From the IMG/VR virus record IMGVR_UViG_3300017720_000094, positions 1-20,199 of that record: 20,199 nucleotides of DNA; one strand, 5' to 3'. The notes beneath the pieces were generated by a model. The model made no database searches. It was not told the DNA's origin and was given only the letters and a program-made list of their open reading frames with translations. How positions within the stretch are numbered: the first letter of the stretch is position 1; every line of letters begins with the position of its first letter. Of the stretch, positions 1,295 through 18,450 are shown one piece after another. This DNA comes from a virus. Position numbers and translations under genes: made by a program.

Positions 1295-3736
1295 TTAAAA
1301 TTGTGGCTCTGTTTTACCAGGCCTCCACCAATATTTTTGATTTTGCTCTCTTTTTAGTTTTTTTTCATGCTGTCTAAATTTTTTCTTTGCTTTATCATCA
1401 GCCCACATTTCAGCTTGATTTACTATTAATCTTTCAAATGCAAGTCTTGAATACCATATTGAAGATGCTGGATTGTATTTTGAGGCAAAATCAATTAAAT
1501 CAGAAGCTATTTTTGGATCATCACCTTTCATAACTTCCTGAATGTTTTTTTGTGTTAAGTTAATTATATCAACACCAAGCCCAACAACCGGCCCAGCGAT
1601 TGATTGTGCTATTGGATTTCTTCCATAAACAGTATGGTCAACAAATAAATAATCACCAAAAATTCCAAAACCACCACCTTGAAATGTTGCGGCCATCCAA
1701 AACTCTGGACTATTCATTTCTCTAGGCTCTCTGCCTTTTGATATTTCTTTCATCTGTAAAGCAAACGCACCCATTAATGTGGTAGATATTATAAAATCAG
1801 CCATGTATGCAGCTCTACCTTTTGATTCAGGCGCATACATTCCTCTCGATAAATGAGTATACAATAAAGTAGTGCCAAAACCTTTATACATTCCAAAACT
1901 TCTTGCAAGTTCCCCACTTAAAGTACCTGGAGTGGTTTTTGCTTTTAGAAGATATTGACCTCTTACACTAGATGACGGAACAGCAAAATTTGTTTCAGTA
2001 TTAATCATTTCCAAATATCTTGTGGCTAGATCTCTTCTTACACCTTTATTTAAATTTATGTTGTTTTCAATATCTACAGCTCGTAAAATCTTAACGCCAT
2101 CTACATCCTCTAATTTAGATTTTCTAATAAGATCCCATTTGTAATCAGTAAAGCCATATCTTATTAAAGCGTCTTTTAAAGGTTTTTGTAAATCATTAAA
2201 TTTTACATTTGCGTTTCTTCCTAAAGTTGTCATAAAATCCATGCCAAAAGAAAATCTTCCGGCTTGAGTAAATGGCGATAACAAAGATGCTCGTAGTGTA
2301 AAATCAGCAACTCTTCGACTTAAGTTAGATCCATTTATTTCACCATTAAATCTCATTAAAGCAGATGATGTTGACAGAAATCCTTCAGCATTTAGTCCAG
2401 CAGCTAATGCAATTTGATTTCTTTCTTTTGCCCCTAAAGGCATTATATAATCAAAATATCTTTTTATAGTTGAAGTTTGAGGTAAACCATTAAATTGTCT
2501 TGTAATTCTTTGAAAATTAACATCAGTAACAGCAGTAACAAATGCTCCACCTAATTGAAAGCCTGTTAAATACTGTCTTGACGCTGCTAAATTTTTACCC
2601 AATGATGTAACTGCTATATTATATGATCCAAGAATATGCCCGTAAAAGCCCTCTAATCTTCCTTCTGTTTCTAAAGATTTTGTAATAGCATCTGGCACAT
2701 CTGTTTTACCTTCTAACGCTTGTTTTTTTAAATACTGTTGCAACTTTATTATTGTTGATTTTGGGTTTGGGCCAAGCACTTCCATTAACCCAATATCTCT
2801 TGACATGCTTTGTATATGACCTGTCATTATATCAAATGGATCTGATTTTCCAAATCGTTGATTATATTCAAGCCACTTCTCTGGACTTTTAAAAATTAAA
2901 AATCTATGGTCTGTTCTTCTATTAGCAACTGATTTTCCAAATGCTGCACCACTTGGTTCAAGCTTATTCATTCCCTCTGTAGATATAGTTTCGTATACGT
3001 TTTCTAATTCTTTTCTTAAAGATTCTTTTGTAAATGGTTGATTAGTTCTTTCATCAATCATTTTATTTTCATCTAACTTATCAATAGTGTACTTAACCCA
3101 TTCGTGACTTTTTACTTTTCTCACCTCTAAGGAATCATGTTGTTGAGGCATCCCCCAACCTTTATTTTTTTGTATAGCTCCACCAGCAGCATTAAATCTT
3201 TCTCTTAAATATTCGGAAGCCTCTTTCCAGCCTTGAGCTAATTCTTTTGCATTTTGGTTATTTGTTTTGCGACCAAATACTTCATGCACCATATCATTTA
3301 ATGTAGCTTTGTTTCTTGTATTGCCAATTAAATTTTTTTGAAACGTTATTAAAACTTGATTAAGTCTTGCAGTAGCCAAACCTCTTATTGCATCTATTTT
3401 TTGATCAACATTTGAATATTTGGCAAACCTATCTTCTACCAATAATGCTTCTGCTGCTTTAAAAATATTATTGCCATCTGGACTTCTATAATTTTTTAAT
3501 TTTTGTTCTATAGATCTCCACGCATTTATTTGCAATAATTTTTGTCTACGCTTTAACATAGCCTCATAAGCAGCACTATCAAATACTTCTTTTGCCGCCA
3601 AAGCGGCAGCTTGAGATTCGCTCATTATTTTTTCATATTGTTTGCGTTTTTCACCAAACAAATCAGTAAGCTTCTTAAGCTGATCTTCTGTTACTTTATT
3701 TTCTTTTCTAGCGTTTTTAAGACAATCATCAAACAT
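1295..3736 (-). CDS. Internal virion (ejection) protein, second half of a split gp16-type protein
   Basis: An 813-residue protein in the position of T7 gp16, between the other internal virion proteins and the tail fibre. The first 190 residues are highly charged and predicted helical. A GWGMPQQHD motif at residues 193-201 matches a motif I recall from large gp16-like ejection proteins of marine podoviruses. The remainder is mostly helical with moderately hydrophobic stretches (for example around TGFQLGGAFVTAVTDV and FIISTTLMGAFALQM), suitable for a protein that threads across the host envelope. I see no transglycosylase or other catalytic motif. The start at 3736 lies two bases after the stop of the upstream gene and has an AAAGGT ribosome site inside that gene's end. 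The tight coupling suggests equimolar production with the upstream protein. Precise function is inferred from position. Confidence 0.68.
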   Translation of the reverse strand: MFDDCLKNARKENKVTEDQLKKLTDLFGEKRKQYEKIMSESQAAALAAKEVFDSAAYEAMLKRRQKLLQINAWRSIEQKLKNYRSPDGNNIFKAAEALLVEDRFAKYSNVDQKIDAIRGLATARLNQVLITFQKNLIGNTRNKATLNDMVHEVFGRKTNNQNAKELAQGWKEASEYLRERFNAAGGAIQKNKGWGMPQQHDSLEVRKVKSHEWVKYTIDKLDENKMIDERTNQPFTKESLRKELENVYETISTEGMNKLEPSGAAFGKSVANRRTDHRFLIFKSPEKWLEYNQRFGKSDPFDIMTGHIQSMSRDIGLMEVLGPNPKSTIIKLQQYLKKQALEGKTDVPDAITKSLETEGRLEGFYGHILGSYNIAVTSLGKNLAASRQYLTGFQLGGAFVTAVTDVNFQRITRQFNGLPQTSTIKRYFDYIMPLGAKERNQIALAAGLNAEGFLSTSSALMRFNGEINGSNLSRRVADFTLRASLLSPFTQAGRFSFGMDFMTTLGRNANVKFNDLQKPLKDALIRYGFTDYKWDLIRKSKLEDVDGVKILRAVDIENNINLNKGVRRDLATRYLEMINTETNFAVPSSSVRGQYLLKAKTTPGTLSGELARSFGMYKGFGTTLLYTHLSRGMYAPESKGRAAYMADFIISTTLMGAFALQMKEISKGREPREMNSPEFWMAATFQGGGFGIFGDYLFVDHTVYGRNPIAQSIAGPVVGLGVDIINLTQKNIQEVMKGDDPKIASDLIDFASKYNPASSIWYSRLAFERLIVNQAEMWADDKAKKKFRQHEKKLKREQNQKYWWRPGKTEPQF

Positions 3737-3738
3737 AT

Positions 3739-6195
3739 TTATTTACCTTTAGGATAAGCACAAGGTCTTAATCTATCTAACATTTCTTGCTCTTGATCTA
3801 ACTCTTTTTTTACCTCACCAATTGTTGTTAATGTTTCAACTCCTTCATCATTAAATTCAGGTATTGGCTTGTTTGTAACGTCAGGCGCATCATTGCCAAA
3901 AAGATCTTCATATAATTGATCTGATTGTCTAGCATATGCTGCGCTTGTTGGATCGTTAAAATTATCTAAGACATCTGTTGTATCTGTAACCTCGCTAATT
4001 TCCTCTGCACTAGAGATAGTGCGCCCTGATTCGCTAGGTAAATCCCCATAGATATCGCCCTCGCTTGCTCTTGCTCTGATAGCTTCGACAAATCCTTTTG
4101 TAGCCTCTGTAAAGTTGTTTGTGTCTTTGGCTGTTTGCGCTGCTTTACTAAGCGCTTCTGAGATTTGACCTTCGTAGTTTGCAAGTTTTTGAATAAGTTC
4201 GATTGCTCTCTCATCTTCTGTTGCTCTCCTTTGGTTAGCTGCTTTTGCAATTTGATTCCCTTCTGATTCTATTTTAGATACATTATCAACTAATGATTTA
4301 AAAACAGTTTTATCTCTTTGTAAAGTTTTAACAGCCAAATCAATAATTTTAGCTCTTTCTTTATACAATGTTTCAGCAAACATTTGCTCCCCAAACAAAT
4401 CTACTTGCTGTCTAAGCTCAACTCCAGATTTGCCTTGCGCTAATATTTGTCGCACTATTGCTTCTGCTTGTGTTGCATTTTCAGGGGCAGCTTCTTTTAT
4501 TGTTTTAATTATTGCTTGTTGCGTTAAATCATCATCTGTTAATCTACCTATAATAGATCCATAATTAGTAGGAATAACTCCATTCATAACTGCTTGCAAA
4601 TTTGCATCTGATAGTTTTGATAAACCATTTGCTTGCCTAACTAATTCAGATCTTAAGTTTAAACCCTTAATTGCATCAGGATCTTCTTTTAATATTCTTG
4701 CTGCTGACAACTTTCTATCAGTTGATGATTGCTCTGTAATGTTTTTTATTGCAGCTTTTACTCTTATTTCGCCCGGAGTATATCCATCTTTTTCTCTAAA
4801 CACAGCAGCTATTAATTCTATTTTCTGGCCTGGATCTTTTGCTTGTATTCTTTTAGCAAGCGCAAATCTTTGATGGCCATCTGCAACAACTTTTTTGCCA
4901 TTAGCATATTCGTATACTATTATTTGATTAGATAACTCTGGCTTCCATGTTTCAACATTCCTTAAATCTGCTGACACACCAAATTCATCAACATCATCTT
5001 CTATTTTATATTGAAATGTTTTTGGCTCTACTTCTAATTCTTTAGGGTTAAATTTAGAAACAGATGTTCCAAGATTTTCATTTTGATATATATCTTTACT
5101 TTTTTTCTTAGACGCCGGACTAGTAGATATATTAGGAATGTCGCCATTAGCTACAGCATTATACGCTTTATTAAGTCTTGATTCATGTTCAACAACATCT
5201 TCTAAAGGATTGTCTTTTAATATTTCGTCTGAATTATCAAAACTATTTTTAAGAGCATAATCATCATCTTTTAATTCTTTATTTTTGTTTTTAATTTTGT
5301 CAGTAATTTTTTTATCATAAAAAAGATCAAGGCCTTTTTTTATTTGTGCAGTTGTTAAATTAGCAAATACTTCTACTCCTTTTAAACCAGCTGGCAACAA
5401 CGCTCCACCAACGCCGGCAGTTACAATAGACTGCAAAAGACCTGGATAAGATTCTTCTAAACCTGTTTCTTCGTACCATTTCTTAACACCTGGCTGCAAT
5501 ATGGCCTCAGCTCCCATAGCTACCATAGCCTCTGTAAGCATAATTGTTTTTAAAGTATTTGCATAAAACCCTACTGGCAATAACATAGATTGCTGTATTA
5601 CTGGATCTTTTAAAGTAGCAGTTACATCACCCAAAAAAGATCCTGTGCCAGCTAAAAATCCTGATGATCTTTGTTGAGCATCTTTAAATTGCTCATGGTT
5701 TAATACAGCTTGTTCTTTTGCTAAACCTTCTATTGAATCTAATGTAATATCTTGATAATCCGGATATAATGTTTTGTTATTCCGTATATGATCTATTATT
5801 TTTTGCGCATCTGTTTTATATTGTTGCTGATAATCTGTAGTAATATATTCATAAGCAAAACTTGCAGCATTTACCAGTCCACCAAAATTAGAATGAGCAA
5901 ATGGTTTGTCAAAATATGCTTTACCCATCTCTAAAAATGGACTTAAATTTGTTATTAGATTATTTGCTGGATTTGCAAACGTTACATTTTGTTTGCTTTG
6001 TATTTCATCTATTAATGGTTTCCATTGCTCATTTAATAAATTTGCTTTTGATGAACTTAGCCCTAAACTCTCAAAGTTTTTTTTAGCAGCTTTAAAGTTT
6101 TCCGCAAAACCATAACCTCCATACAATAATGGCTTTGTTGTTTTTTCTTCAAAATTATATATTGATTCATCTGCTTTTTTTGTAAATAAAGGCAT
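3739..6195 (-). CDS. Internal virion (ejection) protein with a ParB/sulfiredoxin-fold domain
   Basis: An 818-residue protein in the T7 gp15-gp16 region. Residues 1-180 are soluble and helical. Residues 195-280 are hydrophobic and glycine-rich (PVIQQSMLLPVGF, SIVTAGVGGALLPAGLKG), which could insert in a membrane during ejection. Residues 300-385 are charged and linker-like. Residues 390-490 form a ParB/Srx-like domain with the signature VVADGHQRFALAKR at 436-449. This corresponds to the G-[EH]-x-R box II of ParB proteins and the DdrB-type ParB domains of phage polyvalent proteins. Residues 490-590 are helical, and the C-terminus is acidic. No canonical ParB helix-turn-helix is obvious. There is no ribosome binding site: the upstream stop codon lies five bases before this ATG, so translation is probably coupled. 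Codon use changes locally near 4000-4240. The ejection role is inferred from gene order; the domain call from the motif. Confidence 0.7.
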   Translation of the reverse strand: MPLFTKKADESIYNFEEKTTKPLLYGGYGFAENFKAAKKNFESLGLSSSKANLLNEQWKPLIDEIQSKQNVTFANPANNLITNLSPFLEMGKAYFDKPFAHSNFGGLVNAASFAYEYITTDYQQQYKTDAQKIIDHIRNNKTLYPDYQDITLDSIEGLAKEQAVLNHEQFKDAQQRSSGFLAGTGSFLGDVTATLKDPVIQQSMLLPVGFYANTLKTIMLTEAMVAMGAEAILQPGVKKWYEETGLEESYPGLLQSIVTAGVGGALLPAGLKGVEVFANLTTAQIKKGLDLFYDKKITDKIKNKNKELKDDDYALKNSFDNSDEILKDNPLEDVVEHESRLNKAYNAVANGDIPNISTSPASKKKSKDIYQNENLGTSVSKFNPKELEVEPKTFQYKIEDDVDEFGVSADLRNVETWKPELSNQIIVYEYANGKKVVADGHQRFALAKRIQAKDPGQKIELIAAVFREKDGYTPGEIRVKAAIKNITEQSSTDRKLSAARILKEDPDAIKGLNLRSELVRQANGLSKLSDANLQAVMNGVIPTNYGSIIGRLTDDDLTQQAIIKTIKEAAPENATQAEAIVRQILAQGKSGVELRQQVDLFGEQMFAETLYKERAKIIDLAVKTLQRDKTVFKSLVDNVSKIESEGNQIAKAANQRRATEDERAIELIQKLANYEGQISEALSKAAQTAKDTNNFTEATKGFVEAIRARASEGDIYGDLPSESGRTISSAEEISEVTDTTDVLDNFNDPTSAAYARQSDQLYEDLFGNDAPDVTNKPIPEFNDEGVETLTTIGEVKKELDQEQEMLDRLRPCAYPKGK

Positions 6196-6200
6196 AATTT

Positions 6201-8471
6201 TTACATTATATTAGGTGGCACGCTTGATGGCAATTTTTCCGGTAATGTGCGCTCTATTGTTTCATCATATTGAATAGTAAATTCTTCAAAGTCATCCGGC
6301 CTAAATTTAATATATTTACCATTACGATCTGAGTAAAAATGTTTTTGGTCATCTACTAATTCATATATATAATAAGTATTACCTTCATCTGCGGATTCAA
6401 TTTTTATATTGTCACTTGCTCTAATTCTTTTTGCAAAATCATTATTAAAATTAGAATTACCCATGTCTTCTAAATTTTTTGTTGTTAAAATATCAAGCAT
6501 TGCTGCTAATTTATTTTCTGAATATTCTCCAGTATATGTAATCTTACCTCTAACTTCGCCAATTCTATTTCCTGTTATTTGTTGTAAGATGTCTTTGTAT
6601 TTTTCATCATCAAACTCTTCATCCGACACATATCTTCGTTTGTATATAAACTTTGCTATTCTTCTGTATTGATTTATTTGAGCTGCATTTTGACCAGGAA
6701 ATGCTGCTACAAAAACATTATCAAATATTGGATTTGCATCCTCAGAACTCCAAGCTCTTTTGCCAAATTCTGGATCTTTTTCCGCTTCCTCCATGCCAAG
6801 AAAAGCATCTCGCAGCAATTCTTTGCTTGTGCCATCCCCAATTGTTAAAGCCATTGCAGCTATTGATGCTAACTCAGGATTTTCTTCAGCTATTTGCTCA
6901 ATTGCCACATCTGCATATTCTCCTGCATTTTTTACTATTGCTGTAACTAATGTAATTTTATCTTGAACATTATTGCGACTATAGGCCTCACTAATAGCTC
7001 TTTGCTCGGCTATTGTAAACACTTTAGGTTTATAACCAAAATATTCATTTTTTAAATTAGATATTTCATCTAATCTTTCTTTTGGAATAAAATTAATAGG
7101 ATCATCAAAATTTAATGGCGTAAGGGGAAACCCTGATGCAAGAGCATAATCTAAAGGATTTTTTTGCAATTTTGTATCTACAGCATTTCTTCTTTTTTCT
7201 AAAAAATTTACTACTTTAACTTCAATATCCGTATCCAGCCTGCCATCATCACCTCTTCCAGGTATGCCTTGCCGGCTTATAACTAACAGTTTATCATTTA
7301 TTTCATCTGTAGTTGCTCCTTTAGTTTGATTAGTTATATTGTTAAACAAAACCACATCTTCATACATGCCAATTATTGGAGTTAAATCAATAGGCAAACC
7401 ATCTGCGTTTTCAATTAATATATTAACTTGACTTGCAAGAGCTTGTATTCCAGATTCGCTAAAAGATCCATCATTTTTAAGAATATCAATACTATCGTTT
7501 AAAGTTTTTTTAACATCAGTTATTTTTGAGTTTATAACTTTTATTTGATGTTCATTTTTTTTTAATAATGAAGCCTTAAGATCGTCAATTTGGTTACTTG
7601 TAAAAGCTTCAAGAACAGTAGGATCTTTATCTAAATTTTCTACAAATTTTACTTTCCCACTATATGAGTTAATCCCTTTATATTGTGCATTTATTCTTCC
7701 AATTAAAGCTTCTTCATATATTTTTATTTTTGCTGATTCAATATCTTCCGCAGAATAATTCATAGCTGCGTAAGCGTCTGTTATATCTTTTACCTTTAAA
7801 TCAATAAGTTGTTGATCGTAAGTAAACGGATCATTCGCAATGTTTCTAACGTCAGCATACAACCCACTAACATATTCAAGAGTTTCTACTTTTTTTTGCT
7901 CAAAAATTTTACTTTGCGTGTGTTTGCTAAAATCAGTTTTATATTGAGATAAAGATGCTGCAATTTCTGTTCTTGCTTGTAAATATAATTCAGGATCTAT
8001 ATATTTACCATACTCAGATAAATATGCTGCTGACAAGCTATCAATACTATTATTAAATTCTTGTTGTGACAAGTTGTTTGCCACAGCGTCTTGATATAAA
8101 AACTTTGCATTTTTTGTTGTATGCGCTTTTGCATCGATGACTAAAAGCCGGCCACCTATTGTTTGCTGATATTTTTCAACTAAGTTTTCAGGCGGACCCT
8201 CACCTTTCATTTCTAAAACTTCTTTAAAACCTCTTTCTTTTATTAGCTCTGAAACTTGATATCTAGTATTTTCTTGCAATTGCTCAACTTGCTGTTTTTC
8301 TCTTTTAGCTTTTTGATCCATGCCACGACTATATAAAAAGTTAGACATACGATCTAAACTTGAAGCTATCTGTTGAAAACCTCTAGCCTCTTCTGATAAA
8401 GCAGCTTGCTGTGTCTTTCTTATTGTTGGGGCTTCTACTGCTCCACCTTGATATCTTACAAGTTTTGCCAT
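6201..8471 (-). CDS. Internal virion protein, T7 gp15-like ejection protein
   Basis: A 756-residue, predominantly helical and strongly charged protein without predicted membrane segments. It lies between the gp14-like and gp16-like genes, exactly where T7 gp15 occurs. Its N-terminus (MAKLVRYQGGAV, then an EEARGFQQIASSLDRMSNFL helix) resembles recalled gp15-type internal core proteins of marine podoviruses, which begin with a short conserved peptide followed by long coiled helices. In T7 the gp15 protein forms part of the periplasmic tube through which DNA passes. The start at 8471 is preceded by a short Shine-Dalgarno-like AGGAT that overlaps the end of the upstream gene; the stop of that gene is at 8475. 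No enzymatic motif was found. The function rests on synteny and size more than on recognisable motifs. Confidence 0.72.
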   Translation of the reverse strand: MAKLVRYQGGAVEAPTIRKTQQAALSEEARGFQQIASSLDRMSNFLYSRGMDQKAKREKQQVEQLQENTRYQVSELIKERGFKEVLEMKGEGPPENLVEKYQQTIGGRLLVIDAKAHTTKNAKFLYQDAVANNLSQQEFNNSIDSLSAAYLSEYGKYIDPELYLQARTEIAASLSQYKTDFSKHTQSKIFEQKKVETLEYVSGLYADVRNIANDPFTYDQQLIDLKVKDITDAYAAMNYSAEDIESAKIKIYEEALIGRINAQYKGINSYSGKVKFVENLDKDPTVLEAFTSNQIDDLKASLLKKNEHQIKVINSKITDVKKTLNDSIDILKNDGSFSESGIQALASQVNILIENADGLPIDLTPIIGMYEDVVLFNNITNQTKGATTDEINDKLLVISRQGIPGRGDDGRLDTDIEVKVVNFLEKRRNAVDTKLQKNPLDYALASGFPLTPLNFDDPINFIPKERLDEISNLKNEYFGYKPKVFTIAEQRAISEAYSRNNVQDKITLVTAIVKNAGEYADVAIEQIAEENPELASIAAMALTIGDGTSKELLRDAFLGMEEAEKDPEFGKRAWSSEDANPIFDNVFVAAFPGQNAAQINQYRRIAKFIYKRRYVSDEEFDDEKYKDILQQITGNRIGEVRGKITYTGEYSENKLAAMLDILTTKNLEDMGNSNFNNDFAKRIRASDNIKIESADEGNTYYIYELVDDQKHFYSDRNGKYIKFRPDDFEEFTIQYDETIERTLPEKLPSSVPPNIM

Positions 8472-8474
8472 ATC

Positions 8475-8936
8475 CTAACTCATTCCAGTTGTATTGGTAT
8501 TACCATATCCTAAGTCTTGTTGTTTAACATAGCCTTGACCTAAAGTAGCAAATGCAGATAAGTAAGCAGTTTGTTTCGCTCTTTTCCCAGCTCTTCTATA
8601 ATTATCTGCTTGGTAATCACCCATAGATTGTGATACAAGAGAGCTATCAATAGCAGTAATAAAATCTTTTCTACCTTCTTTTGCAGCATAATTTTGCAAG
8701 TTTAACGCTGATCCACTCAAAGCATTAACTCCACCAGCAGCAGCTCTAGCCACAGTTGCGGCCATAACTTCTTGCATTTTTACTAATTGTTGAACTGCTT
8801 GTTTTTTAAATTTTAAAGATTCAGATTTTGCGGCTATTTCCTCATCTTGAGCTTTAGCTTGATAATACATATTTTCTGATTGTCCAGCTCTTACTTGAGC
8901 AAAAGCTGATACTGCTGCGAACGCAATTTGTGCCAT
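8475..8936 (-). CDS. Internal virion protein, T7 gp14-like
   Basis: A 153-residue protein with the layout of T7 gp14. A short hydrophobic alanine-rich N-terminus (MAQIAFAAVSAFAQVRAGQ) is followed by a charged helix. A central segment, ARAAAGGVNALSGSALNLQ, carries the GxxxxSGSA motif typical of the family. A second helix ends in AKQTAYLSAFATLGQGY. In T7 the gp14 protein leaves the capsid first and forms the pore in the outer membrane. The ribosome binding site GGGGAA lies in the last bases of the tail tubular B gene, which ends at 8938. Its place, just after the tail tubular genes and before the gp15-like gene, supports the call. Confidence 0.8.
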   Translation of the reverse strand: MAQIAFAAVSAFAQVRAGQSENMYYQAKAQDEEIAAKSESLKFKKQAVQQLVKMQEVMAATVARAAAGGVNALSGSALNLQNYAAKEGRKDFITAIDSSLVSQSMGDYQADNYRRAGKRAKQTAYLSAFATLGQGYVKQQDLGYGNTNTTGMS

Positions 8937-13723: not shown

Positions 13724-13970
13724 TTTCACTCCTTGCTATTCTTTTCTCAATCATCCTAACAATTTCTGCCATGCCTGTTCTTACATAACCATAGCTAGCA
13801 TCTTCGCCAGGATTCCATGATGGTTGCTCTATTGTTATACTCCTCAAATGATTTAAAACTTTCTGCCCTTCCTGAGTTTTAAACACTTGCCCATATAATA
13901 CATCTAAATCATTTAATTTGTTTGGTTTTTTGTCATCTTGGACCAAACCATCCCATCCATTATCAATCAT
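13716..13970 (-). CDS. Small conserved phage protein, Bbp19-like
   Basis: An 84-residue soluble protein between portal and scaffold genes. A segment reading VFKTQEGQKVLNHLRSI, then a short linker and a C-terminal helix GMAEIVRMIEKRIAR, matches the pattern I recall for the Bbp19 family of small podovirus proteins (F-x-T/S-x-x-G-x-x-V-L-x-x-L). Those proteins occur at this same position beside the portal gene, but their function is unknown to me. The start overlaps the portal stop codon (ATGA), and the end overlaps the scaffold start, so it is translationally coupled to both. Confidence 0.65.
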   Translation of the reverse strand: MIDNGWDGLVQDDKKPNKLNDLDVLYGQVFKTQEGQKVLNHLRSITIEQPSWNPGEDASYGYVRTGMAEIVRMIEKRIARSENG

Positions 13971-15538
13971 TGAATAGCGCCTTCAACTGCTCCACCATCT
14001 GTCGCCTGTGGTGGCTGACCTGGAGCTGCAGCCTGTTGTTGCATCTGCATCATCTGTTGCATCATAGCTTGTTGCTCTTCCGGTGAATTTAATAGGTTTT
14101 GATCTACTCCTAATCGTTCTGCAATAAACGACAATATTTTAGGAATATTTAAAGAAGCTTGACCTGTTGCGCCTGTTGCATTTGCAATTTGCATATATTG
14201 AATTATATCATTTACTTCTTGTAGCTTCTGAGCTTGAGCTAATGGCGATACCGGAGTGACCTTTACCTCAACTCCATTTACTTTAAGAGGCATATCAATA
14301 ATGCCTTGCTGATCTAAAACAAATAGCACTCTGCTAACAATAGGGATCATAGTTTCATTAATTAATCTACCAAATGCAGAGCCTAAGTTTGTTGCCAACT
14401 CTCTTGTTCTCTCTGCAATTTCAGTTGCAGATCTTGCGCTCATATTATCAGGAGGCAATGTGTCATCCATCAAGATTTTTTTAATATTCATCCTAAGGTC
14501 ATTCATAACAATTTGTGACACATTAAAATCACCAGCTCTCGGCAATGGCGTTAATGATGGCCCTTGTGGCCCACCATTTCTTGCAACACTAATAATACTG
14601 CCAGGCTGTATTTTTACATTTTGTGGATTTAAAACTCCATCATCACTAGCAGTATAAACCCCAGCAATTGTTAGACTTGCGTTTTTTAATACTAACTCTA
14701 AAGTTTTATTTAAAGTTTTTACATCACTTATTGCCGTTACAAGTGGACCTCTACCATAAACCTCTCCAGCTACTTTCATGTATCTTGAAACTATAAATGG
14801 ACTTGACTTCATCTCCCTGTATACAATCTCTGTCTTTTTGGCCGGCCATATCACATGATAATGAAACCTACCTATATCAGGATCATAAATAACGGCGTCA
14901 ACTAAATCAACTTCTTTACTTGGAGCTTGATCTATAACCTTTTGTAATTCAGCATTTATTTTGGCATCAGGAAACTCTATCATTATTGATTCTGCTTTAA
15001 GCCTTAGCTTCCTATAGACATTGTCAATATTCCCATATCCACCTTCTTCAATAGCAACTAAGTATTGAGGAATAGCATTAAATCTTATTGGCGTTGTTTC
15101 ATCTCCTGGAGTAATCATCATAACACCTGTGCCAACAGCAAGATCCAAAAGAAACTCTCCCATTGCTAAATCAAAATTTGTTTGACGCAATGATTCAAAA
15201 ACCCTAACTGTGTACTTATCTAATACTTCTTGGGCTTGTAACTTTTGCTCATCAGGAATACCTGATCCTGGCTCTAACCTAGCCCATTGTTTGTATGGTG
15301 GAAATAACCCAGCTTGCAGTCTATTCGCAAATCTTTGCGTAGCGTGAATTGCTGTAGAATCAAATACTCTAGCCATCTTGTTTTTGCCAGCAACTTTGCC
15401 TTCGTAAAATCCTGAATATAAATTTCTTTGTGGCAAAGCAAACTCGTAACAATCTTCATAAATAGAACGCCACTCATCCTTGCGTGCCTGTGCTTTTGCC
15501 TCTCTCTCCATGATACTTGTTACATTTAATTTTGGCAT
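13967..15538 (-). CDS. Head-to-tail connector (portal) protein
   Basis: A 523-residue portal of the podovirus head-tail connector family, similar in length to T7 gp8 (536 residues). The N-terminal segment EREAKAQARKDEWRSIYEDC, then ALPQRN and VFDSTAIHATQRFANRLQAGLFPPYKQW, is diagnostic. The centre has SRYMKVAGEVYGRGPLVTAI and later SARSATEIAERTRELATNLG, both typical of the stem and wing regions. The last 60 residues are rich in Gln, Met, Pro and Ala (a MMQQMMQMQQQ run), which is usual for the crown/barrel tail. Twelve subunits are expected to form the packaging channel where the terminase docks. An AAGGAAAG ribosome site precedes the ATG, immediately after the stop of the 102-residue gene. 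Confidence 0.94.
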   Translation of the reverse strand: MPKLNVTSIMEREAKAQARKDEWRSIYEDCYEFALPQRNLYSGFYEGKVAGKNKMARVFDSTAIHATQRFANRLQAGLFPPYKQWARLEPGSGIPDEQKLQAQEVLDKYTVRVFESLRQTNFDLAMGEFLLDLAVGTGVMMITPGDETTPIRFNAIPQYLVAIEEGGYGNIDNVYRKLRLKAESIMIEFPDAKINAELQKVIDQAPSKEVDLVDAVIYDPDIGRFHYHVIWPAKKTEIVYREMKSSPFIVSRYMKVAGEVYGRGPLVTAISDVKTLNKTLELVLKNASLTIAGVYTASDDGVLNPQNVKIQPGSIISVARNGGPQGPSLTPLPRAGDFNVSQIVMNDLRMNIKKILMDDTLPPDNMSARSATEIAERTRELATNLGSAFGRLINETMIPIVSRVLFVLDQQGIIDMPLKVNGVEVKVTPVSPLAQAQKLQEVNDIIQYMQIANATGATGQASLNIPKILSFIAERLGVDQNLLNSPEEQQAMMQQMMQMQQQAAAPGQPPQATDGGAVEGAIQ

Positions 15539-16456: not shown

Positions 16457-16933
16457 TTACGATATCCTTGTCATTAAATAATAATCTTCACCTTCAGGCC
16501 CAAATTTCTTCATCTTAGATTCAACTTTAAAATGCAGCGATTGAGCAAATTTAAAGGCAGTTTCATTTGAAACTCTAACAGCTATTTGTAATCTTTTCAA
16601 GCCAAATTCTTCAATAGAATCACTTAGCAATATCCTTGCCCCCTTTACTAATGATATCGCATTTTGCTCAATACCATGCCCTGTAAGTAGCCACGCTTCA
16701 GCAACACCTGTCCACATTGGCCTAACCCCAAAAATACAGATAACCTTTCCTTTTGCTATACCTGTCCAAGTAAGATCCTCAAGAGAATTATTAATTACAT
16801 AAGCTAGATAATCAGGAATACTCTCTATGTTATCTAATTCATGTTTTCTAAAATCAATTAAATTTAAATGATTAGGCTGAAACGGCACAATCTGTTGTTG
16901 CGCTGATGTTTTTATTCTTGCTATTTGTATCAT
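16457..16933 (-). CDS. GNAT-fold protein, T7 gp13-like
   Basis: A 158-residue protein with the outline of a GNAT acyltransferase fold. A central strand-rich part (GKVICIFGVRPMWTGVAEAW) is followed by a helix (GARILLSDSIEEFGLKRLQI), and AVRVSNETAFKFAQSLHFKV near the C-terminus is the familiar GNAT motif-B-like pattern with the N-x-x-A-x-x-F-x-x-x-x-x-F spacing. The acetyl-CoA pyrophosphate loop (Q/RxxGxG/A) is not evident, so catalytic activity is doubtful. T7 gp13, a morphogenesis protein, has a similar size and fold pattern. Here the gene follows terL by a TAATG overlap rather than lying with the other internal protein genes. The call is pattern-based. Confidence 0.68.
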   Translation of the reverse strand: MIQIARIKTSAQQQIVPFQPNHLNLIDFRKHELDNIESIPDYLAYVINNSLEDLTWTGIAKGKVICIFGVRPMWTGVAEAWLLTGHGIEQNAISLVKGARILLSDSIEEFGLKRLQIAVRVSNETAFKFAQSLHFKVESKMKKFGPEGEDYYLMTRIS

Positions 16934-18450
16934 TAGAAAATCTCAAAATCTGTGTTAGCTGTAAAGGTTTCACGTGAAACGTTCCTGTATTTACCTCTAC
17001 GCAAGCGTGTTTGCTCGCCACCACCTAACATTAGATACCCAAAAGCATCACCAATATGCGAATGTTCATTCTTTACCGGCGTGTCTTTGTATCGCTCTTG
17101 ACCAGCTCCCATGCTTTGTCTTTTAAAAAAATAGCCTCCAGATAAGCTTTTACGTAAACGTAAACAAGTTTTGTCAACTATAATACCTGGCTTACCACTT
17201 ACAAGCCTATTCATTGGGGATGCGCCGGCTTCTCTTCTAACTTGAAAGGCGTTAGTATCTGTTGGCTGCGCTTTAAACCCAAGAGATCTTAAATGATCAA
17301 AAGCTGTTACCTCATAAATCTCATCTCGTTTGTTACCAGCTGGGTCACCCCAGATTAATATATCATGTTTATTATATCGCTCTGCAATCCTGGCCATCAG
17401 CTCTCTACCAAAACGCTCTAATCCCATATCAAAGGTTACAATCTCATCTATAATCTTCCATGCGCCTGTTGTTGTTCTTTGCCCAAAAACAGCTGCTGGA
17501 GTTAAACCAAAGTCAACTCCTATTTGAACAGGATAATATGGGTCTAAACTTGTATCACCACTCATGATATCATCATCATATTCAGGCCATACTGGTCTAC
17601 CTTCTTGAACGAAAGTATATTTACCTTCAGCATAACAACGAATCCAATCTAAGTTTTTACCACCAAGCAACTGCTGATAATATCCGTTAGGTAAGTTTTC
17701 TTTGTTTTCTGCTTTTGTATTTTCTTGCCACCATTTGCCACCAGAAAAAATACAGCCATTTGCTTCAGGGCTTTTTGGCAACTTGTTTTTTAAAACCTCA
17801 ACTACGCCACCTGGCTGTTTATAAAAGTTCCAAGCAAATTGCCCTTTAATGGGAGTTTTCTCTGCCAAGTTATGCCACCAATGATCATTGTCCGGTGGGT
17901 TTGTGTCCATCCATATCCCATACCAGCTTGGCCCACCATCAGCTTTACTTGGATATCGGCCTACCCTATGGGTTAGCCCATCAATAACAGCCTTTGGTAA
18001 TTCTCTAGCCTCATTACACCATGCACCTGTTATCTCTAAAGATAATAATTTACGAACACTTTGTGGCGTATCAAGTGCTAAGAATATAACTTCACAATCT
18101 ATTCCAGCAGCATCTCCTCTGCTTGGTAACTTTAGATGATGTGTTATTGGTGGCTGCCACCTCATACCACCCCAGACTGCTTCAGGAAATAATTCTTGCC
18201 AGGTCTTAATTGTTGTTGTTCTTAATTCAGGATATGTATTTCTTACCACAACAAATCTGGAATATTTAATACCATCTCTAGGTGAAGGCTTTTGTTGTAC
18301 AGCTCGCAACATAATCTCAGCAGCACACGCATATGACTTGCCAGATCCAACTGGCCCAAGTATTCCACGCACAAAACCCTTGCTTTGTAAAAACTTCCAA
18401 ACAGTTGGACTTTTACTAAAATTTAAATTAAGAGATGGTGTTTCACTCAT
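16933..18450 (-). CDS. terL: Terminase large subunit (packaging ATPase and nuclease)
   Basis: A 505-residue packaging motor. Walker A is GPVGSGKS at residues 32-39, with catalytic acidic residues in WCNEARE (144-150) and a DTNPP coupling motif at 182-186. The nuclease domain shows GVDFGLTP (Asp313), WGDPAGN (Asp369) and HSHIGDAF with His465 and Asp468, the expected metal-binding acids. Length is normal for podovirus TerL. The start overlaps the DUF3310 gene by eight bases. The last fifteen residues, beginning VSRET at 491, are encoded over a perfect parS-like palindrome (16967-16980). The enzyme acts with the small subunit upstream and docks on the portal. Confidence 0.96.
   Translation of the reverse strand: MSETPSLNLNFSKSPTVWKFLQSKGFVRGILGPVGSGKSYACAAEIMLRAVQQKPSPRDGIKYSRFVVVRNTYPELRTTTIKTWQELFPEAVWGGMRWQPPITHHLKLPSRGDAAGIDCEVIFLALDTPQSVRKLLSLEITGAWCNEARELPKAVIDGLTHRVGRYPSKADGGPSWYGIWMDTNPPDNDHWWHNLAEKTPIKGQFAWNFYKQPGGVVEVLKNKLPKSPEANGCIFSGGKWWQENTKAENKENLPNGYYQQLLGGKNLDWIRCYAEGKYTFVQEGRPVWPEYDDDIMSGDTSLDPYYPVQIGVDFGLTPAAVFGQRTTTGAWKIIDEIVTFDMGLERFGRELMARIAERYNKHDILIWGDPAGNKRDEIYEVTAFDHLRSLGFKAQPTDTNAFQVRREAGASPMNRLVSGKPGIIVDKTCLRLRKSLSGGYFFKRQSMGAGQERYKDTPVKNEHSHIGDAFGYLMLGGGEQTRLRRGKYRNVSRETFTANTDFEIF
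16967..16980. other. parS-like palindrome (ParB binding-site core)
   Basis: GTTTCACGTGAAAC, a perfect 14-base inverted repeat with no spacer. It is identical to the inner 14 bases of the bacterial chromosomal parS consensus (TGTTTCACGTGAAACA). The outer two bases differ (G on both sides instead of T and A). It lies within the terL coding sequence, where it encodes residues VSRE plus the start of T495. No second CACGTG core was seen in the window. Confidence 0.7.

Follow-up and report, generated by a model that had tools for sequence, protein, structure and literature searches.

Noc and chromosomal ParB (Spo0J) are CTPase clamps in which a nucleotide-binding domain is followed by a helix-turn-helix (HTH) domain. 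DdrB-like ParB domains (DdrB of phage P1; PF18763) likewise belong to the ParB/sulfiredoxin (Srx) superfamily and are found in phage proteins that adjoin virion genes and are fused to effector domains (PMC5512222). ParB-type domains are absent from the proteins at the gp16 position of Salmonella phage epsilon15 and its counterparts (epsilon15 gp16, VP2p18, HTVC203P gp46), each of which has a lone cysteine close to its C-terminal end. A further relative is gene 21 of the Prochlorococcus podovirus P-SCSP1a, a single giant ORF (2571 aa). It was left unannotated in the respective genome paper, where an internal virion protein was guessed from its size and position (PMC9860041). Here, we describe a protein that holds the gene position and the lone terminal cysteine of epsilon15 gp16, has a core with the fold and domain order of Noc and ParB, and shares this core with P-SCSP1a gene 21 (E 4.8e-80).

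The stretch of DNA that was analysed (the window) is a virus fragment of 20,199 bases whose minus strand encodes a podovirus structural operon. The operon order is terminase, portal, capsid, tail tube A and B, a gp14-like protein, a 756-aa protein, an 818-aa ORF, a phrog_684 protein and a putative tail fibre. Family scans assign the portal (13967-15538) to PF12236 and the capsid to PF19821. The 818-aa ORF (3739..6195, minus strand) is called IVP-C in the following, i.e., the gp16-position protein, and its neighbour IVP-D, i.e., the gp17-position protein. IVP-D is an 813-aa virion structural protein of phrog_684 (1295..3736, minus strand; E 1.1e-172), the family to which epsilon15 gp17 also belongs. 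On the other side of IVP-C lie the 756-aa protein, which by its gene position corresponds to gp15 (lytic transglycosylase; 6201..8471, minus strand), and the gp14-like internal virion protein (family match to phrog_418; 8475..8936, minus strand). The order of the ejection genes is that of epsilon15 gp14 to gp17 (synteny compared over gp13-gp17). The initial annotation had placed the ORF among ejection genes of the T7 gp14-gp16 type, which is confirmed by the series of tail tube A/B, phrog_418, gp15-position protein, ORF and phrog_684, i.e., by a location between tail tube genes and tail fibre as expected for podophage ejection proteins. Given synteny, the scaffold homology described below and the near-absence of cysteine, IVP-C looks like an ejection-type protein.

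Some details of the neighbourhood are given for completeness. The PHROG label 'portal protein' (phrog_21) was rejected, as the profile match covers only 1019-1330 of 1362 and the true portal is encoded at 13967-15538. A GNAT-like protein at 16457-16933, which matches phrog_308 ('internal virion protein'), adjoins the terminase; the acetyltransferase gp13 of epsilon15 sits in the ejection operon. The gp14-position proteins of epsilon15, phiV10, YeP6, Piluca, BUCT711, T7 and P-SCSP1a start with a lone cysteine at residue 2 (MC...), which is not found in those of the window, VP2, Skadi-3 and YA3.

The N-terminal part of IVP-C (residues 1-375; 5071..6195, minus strand) forms a predicted all-helical scaffold, supported by profile matches and by a structure model (pLDDT 73). 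No match stood out when this model was compared with the PDB. A profile of the same residues matches proteins of the Vibrio phages VP2 (4.9e-22) and K292 (1.4e-17) as well as of the Pelagibacter phages HTVC203P (1.6e-8) and HTVC035P (2.9e-7). The matched proteins, of 390-490 aa, share the gene position of IVP-C and lack the ParB core; some scaffold homologues of Vibrio and Pelagibacter phages are annotated as internal virion proteins. The scaffold is thus common to the window protein and the VP2, K292 and HTVC proteins, while epsilon15 gp16 shows no detectable similarity to it (E 0.27). Since the N-terminal scaffold is homologous to shorter proteins that lack the core, the ParB core is an insert between an ejection-protein scaffold and a C-terminal tail.

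For the region behind the scaffold, the initial annotation had reported a ParB box II-like motif and a ParB/Srx fold at residues 390-490. The motif is present and, judged by its conservation in relatives (see below), far beyond chance: box II (P motif) reads VVADGHQRFALAKR at residues 436-449 of the 818-aa protein (4849..4890, minus strand). The fold was assessed with an AlphaFold2 model of residues 376-745 computed without templates (pLDDT 89.3, pTM 0.81). When the model is searched against the PDB with Foldseek, Noc and ParB come first (7nfu 1.8e-5, 6sdk 1.3e-4), and the best 31 PDB matches are without exception ParB, Noc, Spo0J, KorB or pNOB8-like ParB (31/31). The top alignments extend over about 229 columns and cover model residues 1-215, i.e., both domains. 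The fold as first proposed is therefore right, but it makes up only half of a larger ParB/Noc-like unit in which a helix-turn-helix domain comes next.

Domain-wise comparison gives the same picture. The predicted nucleotide-binding fold (residues 376-489; 4729..5070, minus strand; AlphaFold2, Foldseek and VIA-align) is aligned by VIA-align to 7bm8 with Z 9.2 at 2.8 A over 95 residues. The predicted DNA-binding HTH domain (residues 490-590; 4426..4728, minus strand; VIA-align and hhalign register) reaches Z 6.3 for the Noc DBD (6y93) and Z 5.4 for the ParB DBD (6s6h), values that alone are weak for a helical domain. Both domains together yield Z 8.5-8.6 over 177-192 residues for 7nfu, 6t1f and 5k5d, with Z 8.5 at 4.8 A over 191 residues against Noc. 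In profile alignments, which taken alone are far from significant, box II, box III and the HTH fall into the registers expected; for instance, the weakly scored hhalign register places model residues 132-171 on ParB 165-205. The alpha+beta fold with its conserved pocket arginine is that of the ParB/sulfiredoxin superfamily, and the predicted succession of nucleotide-binding domain and ParB HTH domain is that of the ParB/Noc CTPase family. That is, according to the model, residues 376-590 are a ParB/Noc-like unit, with a nucleotide-binding fold joined to an HTH. Residues 591-712 (4060..4425, minus strand) form a helical domain that is conserved together with the core (alignment and model).

Sequence similarity of the core to Noc and ParB is below Pfam detection. 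No domain was found in the 818-aa protein by Pfam, NCBIfam or a single-sequence PDB search, and none of the hhalign comparisons of the core (with ParB, plasmid ParB and DdrB) reached a significant score. A search of viral contigs with the single protein likewise found nothing; an alignment query, built from relatives in SI2, Ruegeria phage 45A6 and Prochlorococcus phage P-SCSP1a, was required. This query retrieved 336 related stretches from viral contigs and a further 24 from genomes of bacteria and archaea. The family with the ParB core is thus wide (336 viral stretches) and absent from Pfam.

Residue conservation was counted in 62 aligned members, where the relatives are 29-47% identical to the window protein. 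Invariant are D439, G440, H441, Q442, R443 and A447 in box II as well as Q395, G406, G433, D470, G471 and N485. R443 (62/62) is the GxxR arginine, and N485 is the asparagine of box III (ENxxR), whose position is taken by KNITE at residues 484-488 (4732..4746, minus strand; alignment and hhalign register). Residue 545 is Y or H in 47/62 members, as in the GHAR motif of ParB. Compared to Noc and ParB (Spo0J), the arginine and the asparagine are kept and both glutamates are replaced: canonical GERR reads GHQR (Glu to His) and ENxxR reads KNIxE (Glu to Lys, in 58/62 members). In ParB, the glutamates of GERR and ENxxR serve hydrolysis. With both of them replaced, hydrolysis is probably weak or altered, and the pocket suggests nucleotide binding with weak or altered turnover. 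The ParB-fold proteins that were tested depend on the GxxR arginine to bind NTP and lose binding upon its mutation, while in vitro no NTP binding was observed for 17/28 purified proteins of this fold (PMC12704722).

The loss of the catalytic glutamates could also be read as degeneration, such that the ParB fold is retained in the virion core purely for packing or as a spacer and binds neither nucleotide nor DNA. The nearly neutral charge of the HTH region (13 K+R, 12 D+E) and the absence of the core from the corresponding protein of several cultured phages are in accordance with this. A mere spacer has however no need for G440, H441, R443 and N485, which are invariant although the relatives are only 29-47% identical to the window protein, and we consider a solely structural role unlikely. 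Another reading takes the ParB fold as an NTP-regulated DNase or nickase that acts on host or phage DNA early in infection. A nicking or nuclease role was proposed for DdrB-like ParB domains by Iyer et al. 2017, several ParB-fold proteins have reported activity as nucleases or NTPases, and the same authors favour the sensing of NTPs as the main function (PMC5512222). Within the pocket of the window protein, the invariant D439-G-H441-Q-R443 could hold a metal. The nearest folds are on the other hand the Noc and ParB clamps rather than nucleases, and the attached HTH is a ParB/Noc feature, which renders a nuclease improbable, slightly more so than the spacer.

The initial annotation had furthermore related the core to DdrB-type ParB domains, which the comparison does not bear out. 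PF18763 matches 0/62 members among the matches listed, while true PF18763 members score 117-127 bits; the signatures LQPRDR and ESGNGR are absent, and no significant profile alignment with the window core is obtained. Judged by model and signature, DdrB-type ParB is a different clade. The wider idea that the protein is akin to polyvalent proteins holds for its relatives: family members are multi-domain and 'polyvalent', with several unrelated effector domains next to late genes. A zeta toxin domain (PF06414; 5.2e-20 to 4.5e-13) follows the core in five relatives (L006, L056, L070, L096, L106), a Walker A motif is found behind the core in 29/107 ORFs, and a giant version (L083) contains LPD37, LPD38, MuF_C and ADP-ribosyltransferase (ART-PolyVal) domains. 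The copy in the window carries scaffold and core only, without further cargo, and family and motif scans find no polyvalent-protein metallopeptidase (HExxH) domain in it. A tail domain recurs at the C-terminus of L008, L016, L019, L029 and L047, for which one weak match to the (p)ppApp synthetase Tas1 is observed (E 0.023, L008). Given this weak match and no match in Pfam, a RelA/SpoT-like reading of some tails was set aside.

A parS-like site in the same genome had been noted as well, and a linked function was raised as a possibility. The site exists: a perfect palindromic 14-bp parS core, GTTTCACGTGAAAC, lies at 16967..16980, within the 3'-terminal part of the terminase gene. Among the 50 contigs of the closest terminase relatives, 10 have parS-like sites with at most 1 mismatch, compared to 0 for a reversed control pattern and an estimated chance expectation of about 0.14 sites, where the contigs are related and hence not independent. 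The sites shift among close relatives, some lying at the end of the terminase gene and others across a start codon located farther upstream (L235:698, L237:328, L233:2971). Only 2/48 contigs bearing the ParB core have a parS core within 2 mismatches. The occurrence of parS-like sites is thus not coupled to that of the ParB-core protein, although the sites may have a role in these phages, perhaps by way of host ParB.

In a further alternative, parS in the phage genome or in the host chromosome is the DNA target of the protein, which disturbs the ParABS system of the host or turns it to its own use. Such a role is compatible with the ParB/Noc-like HTH, the perfect parS core in the window and the sites among terminase relatives, which have no counterpart for the reversed control. 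The 46/48 core-bearing contigs without a site and the moving position of the site between genes speak against it, and so do the reading residues. R173, G201 and R204 of Caulobacter ParB, for which parS-reading roles are known (PMC7383237), are matched with S516, N544 and S547 by the hhalign register, which is weakly scored. In this register, S516 and N544 thus take the place of the residues that read parS or NBS (R173 or Q173; G201 or R201), and positions 516, 544 and 547 are mostly S, N and A across the family. In contrast to Noc and ParB (Spo0J), the window protein also lacks the ParA-binding motif (L/F/I)G(K/R)G(L/F/I), and family scans of the fragment's ORFs reveal no parA-like neighbour. 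We therefore regard parS reading as very improbable. In summary of what was claimed before, the ParB observation is upheld, but its interpretation in terms of DdrB and parS is not.

The other end of IVP-C is conspicuous for its cysteine. Cys812 (3760..3762, minus strand) is the sole cysteine of the protein and lies 6 residues before the C-terminal end, while Cys5 (3722..3724, minus strand) is the sole cysteine of IVP-D. The two ejection-type proteins upstream of IVP-C (756-aa and gp14-like) have none, and the cysteine content of the other window ORFs is 1.0%. The same arrangement is observed for relatives: 43/45 dereplicated IVP-C proteins have a cysteine within their last 10 residues and 40 of them no other (47,006 residues), while all compared IVP-D (phrog_684) proteins have their first cysteine by residue 16 (45/45) and 41 no further one. 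The pattern holds in 14 cultured podophages, namely SI2, epsilon15, phiV10, VP2, Skadi-3, YA3, YeP6, Piluca, K292, BUCT711, Acinetobacter 4316, HTVC203P, HTVC035P and Tr60_Ab31, several of which have gp16-position proteins without detectable similarity to that of the window. ZCVPP1 has the phrog_684 cysteine and no recognisable gp16-position neighbour upstream. Neither gp15/gp16 of T7 nor gp7/gp20/gp16 of P22 contain cysteine. No cysteine is found either in the giant single-ORF versions from 45A6, P-SCSP1a, L083, L088, L097 and L109 (up to 3,912 residues), while giants from bacterial MAGs (L096, L102, L106) have 3 to 5. An origin of the giants as IVP-C/IVP-D fusions is unsupported, as their C-terminal parts fail to match the IVP-D profile, though the giants without cysteine would fit the idea of a staple.

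These counts suggest a disulfide from the tail of one ejection protein to the head of the next as the simplest reading of the cysteine pair; it would form once both proteins are outside the reducing cytoplasm. A disulfide between the two proteins is not mentioned in the openly accessible papers to which our search extended. Alternatively, the terminal cysteines could act separately, i.e., in homodimer disulfides, in metal binding or in contacts to portal or membrane. Some gp14-position proteins have a lone cysteine at residue 2, too, which fits separate roles. The genes of the two proteins are however adjacent, and the paired cysteines are on the ends that face each other; both cysteines are retained jointly in phages without detectable relationship between their gp16-position proteins. 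We thus take separate action as a serious, if less probable, option.

Fold, domain order, pocket arginine and asparagine, scaffold homology, gene position and the single terminal cysteines are what the computational analysis observes. The preferred reading, to which we give about even confidence, is an ejection protein at the epsilon15 gp16 position with a built-in ParB/Noc-like nucleotide- and DNA-binding core that is cysteine-stapled to the next ejection protein. IVP-C would be carried in the virion head and exit via the tail. Its C-terminal cysteine and the N-terminal cysteine of IVP-D would form a disulfide in the oxidising periplasm or after release of the virion, such that the two proteins are stapled tail to head. 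The core would then bind entering or host DNA under nucleotide control, where DNA binding is deduced from the fold; its most likely role is that of a clamp or tether on DNA rather than of a parS-specific partition protein. For relatives, the region between core and cysteine tail would hold further cargo, e.g., zeta-toxin kinase domains. Extended to epsilon15-type podophages in general, i.e., two ejection proteins that are disulfide-joined tail to head, with the upstream partner as a scaffold for inserted cargo modules (Noc/ParB-like core; zeta-toxin kinases), the proposal is slightly more doubtful and falls just short of even confidence.

Podophages build their channel from largely unfolded proteins that are threaded through a narrow tail, and the cysteine pair offers a handle on how such parts find and hold each other; it occurs in phages that can be grown today. 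A core delivered at time zero would act on the entering genome, outside of chromosome partition, as a DNA-binding device under the control of nucleotides. Finally, a large family of marine phage proteins that was previously recorded as hypothetical gains an annotation through its ParB/Noc core.
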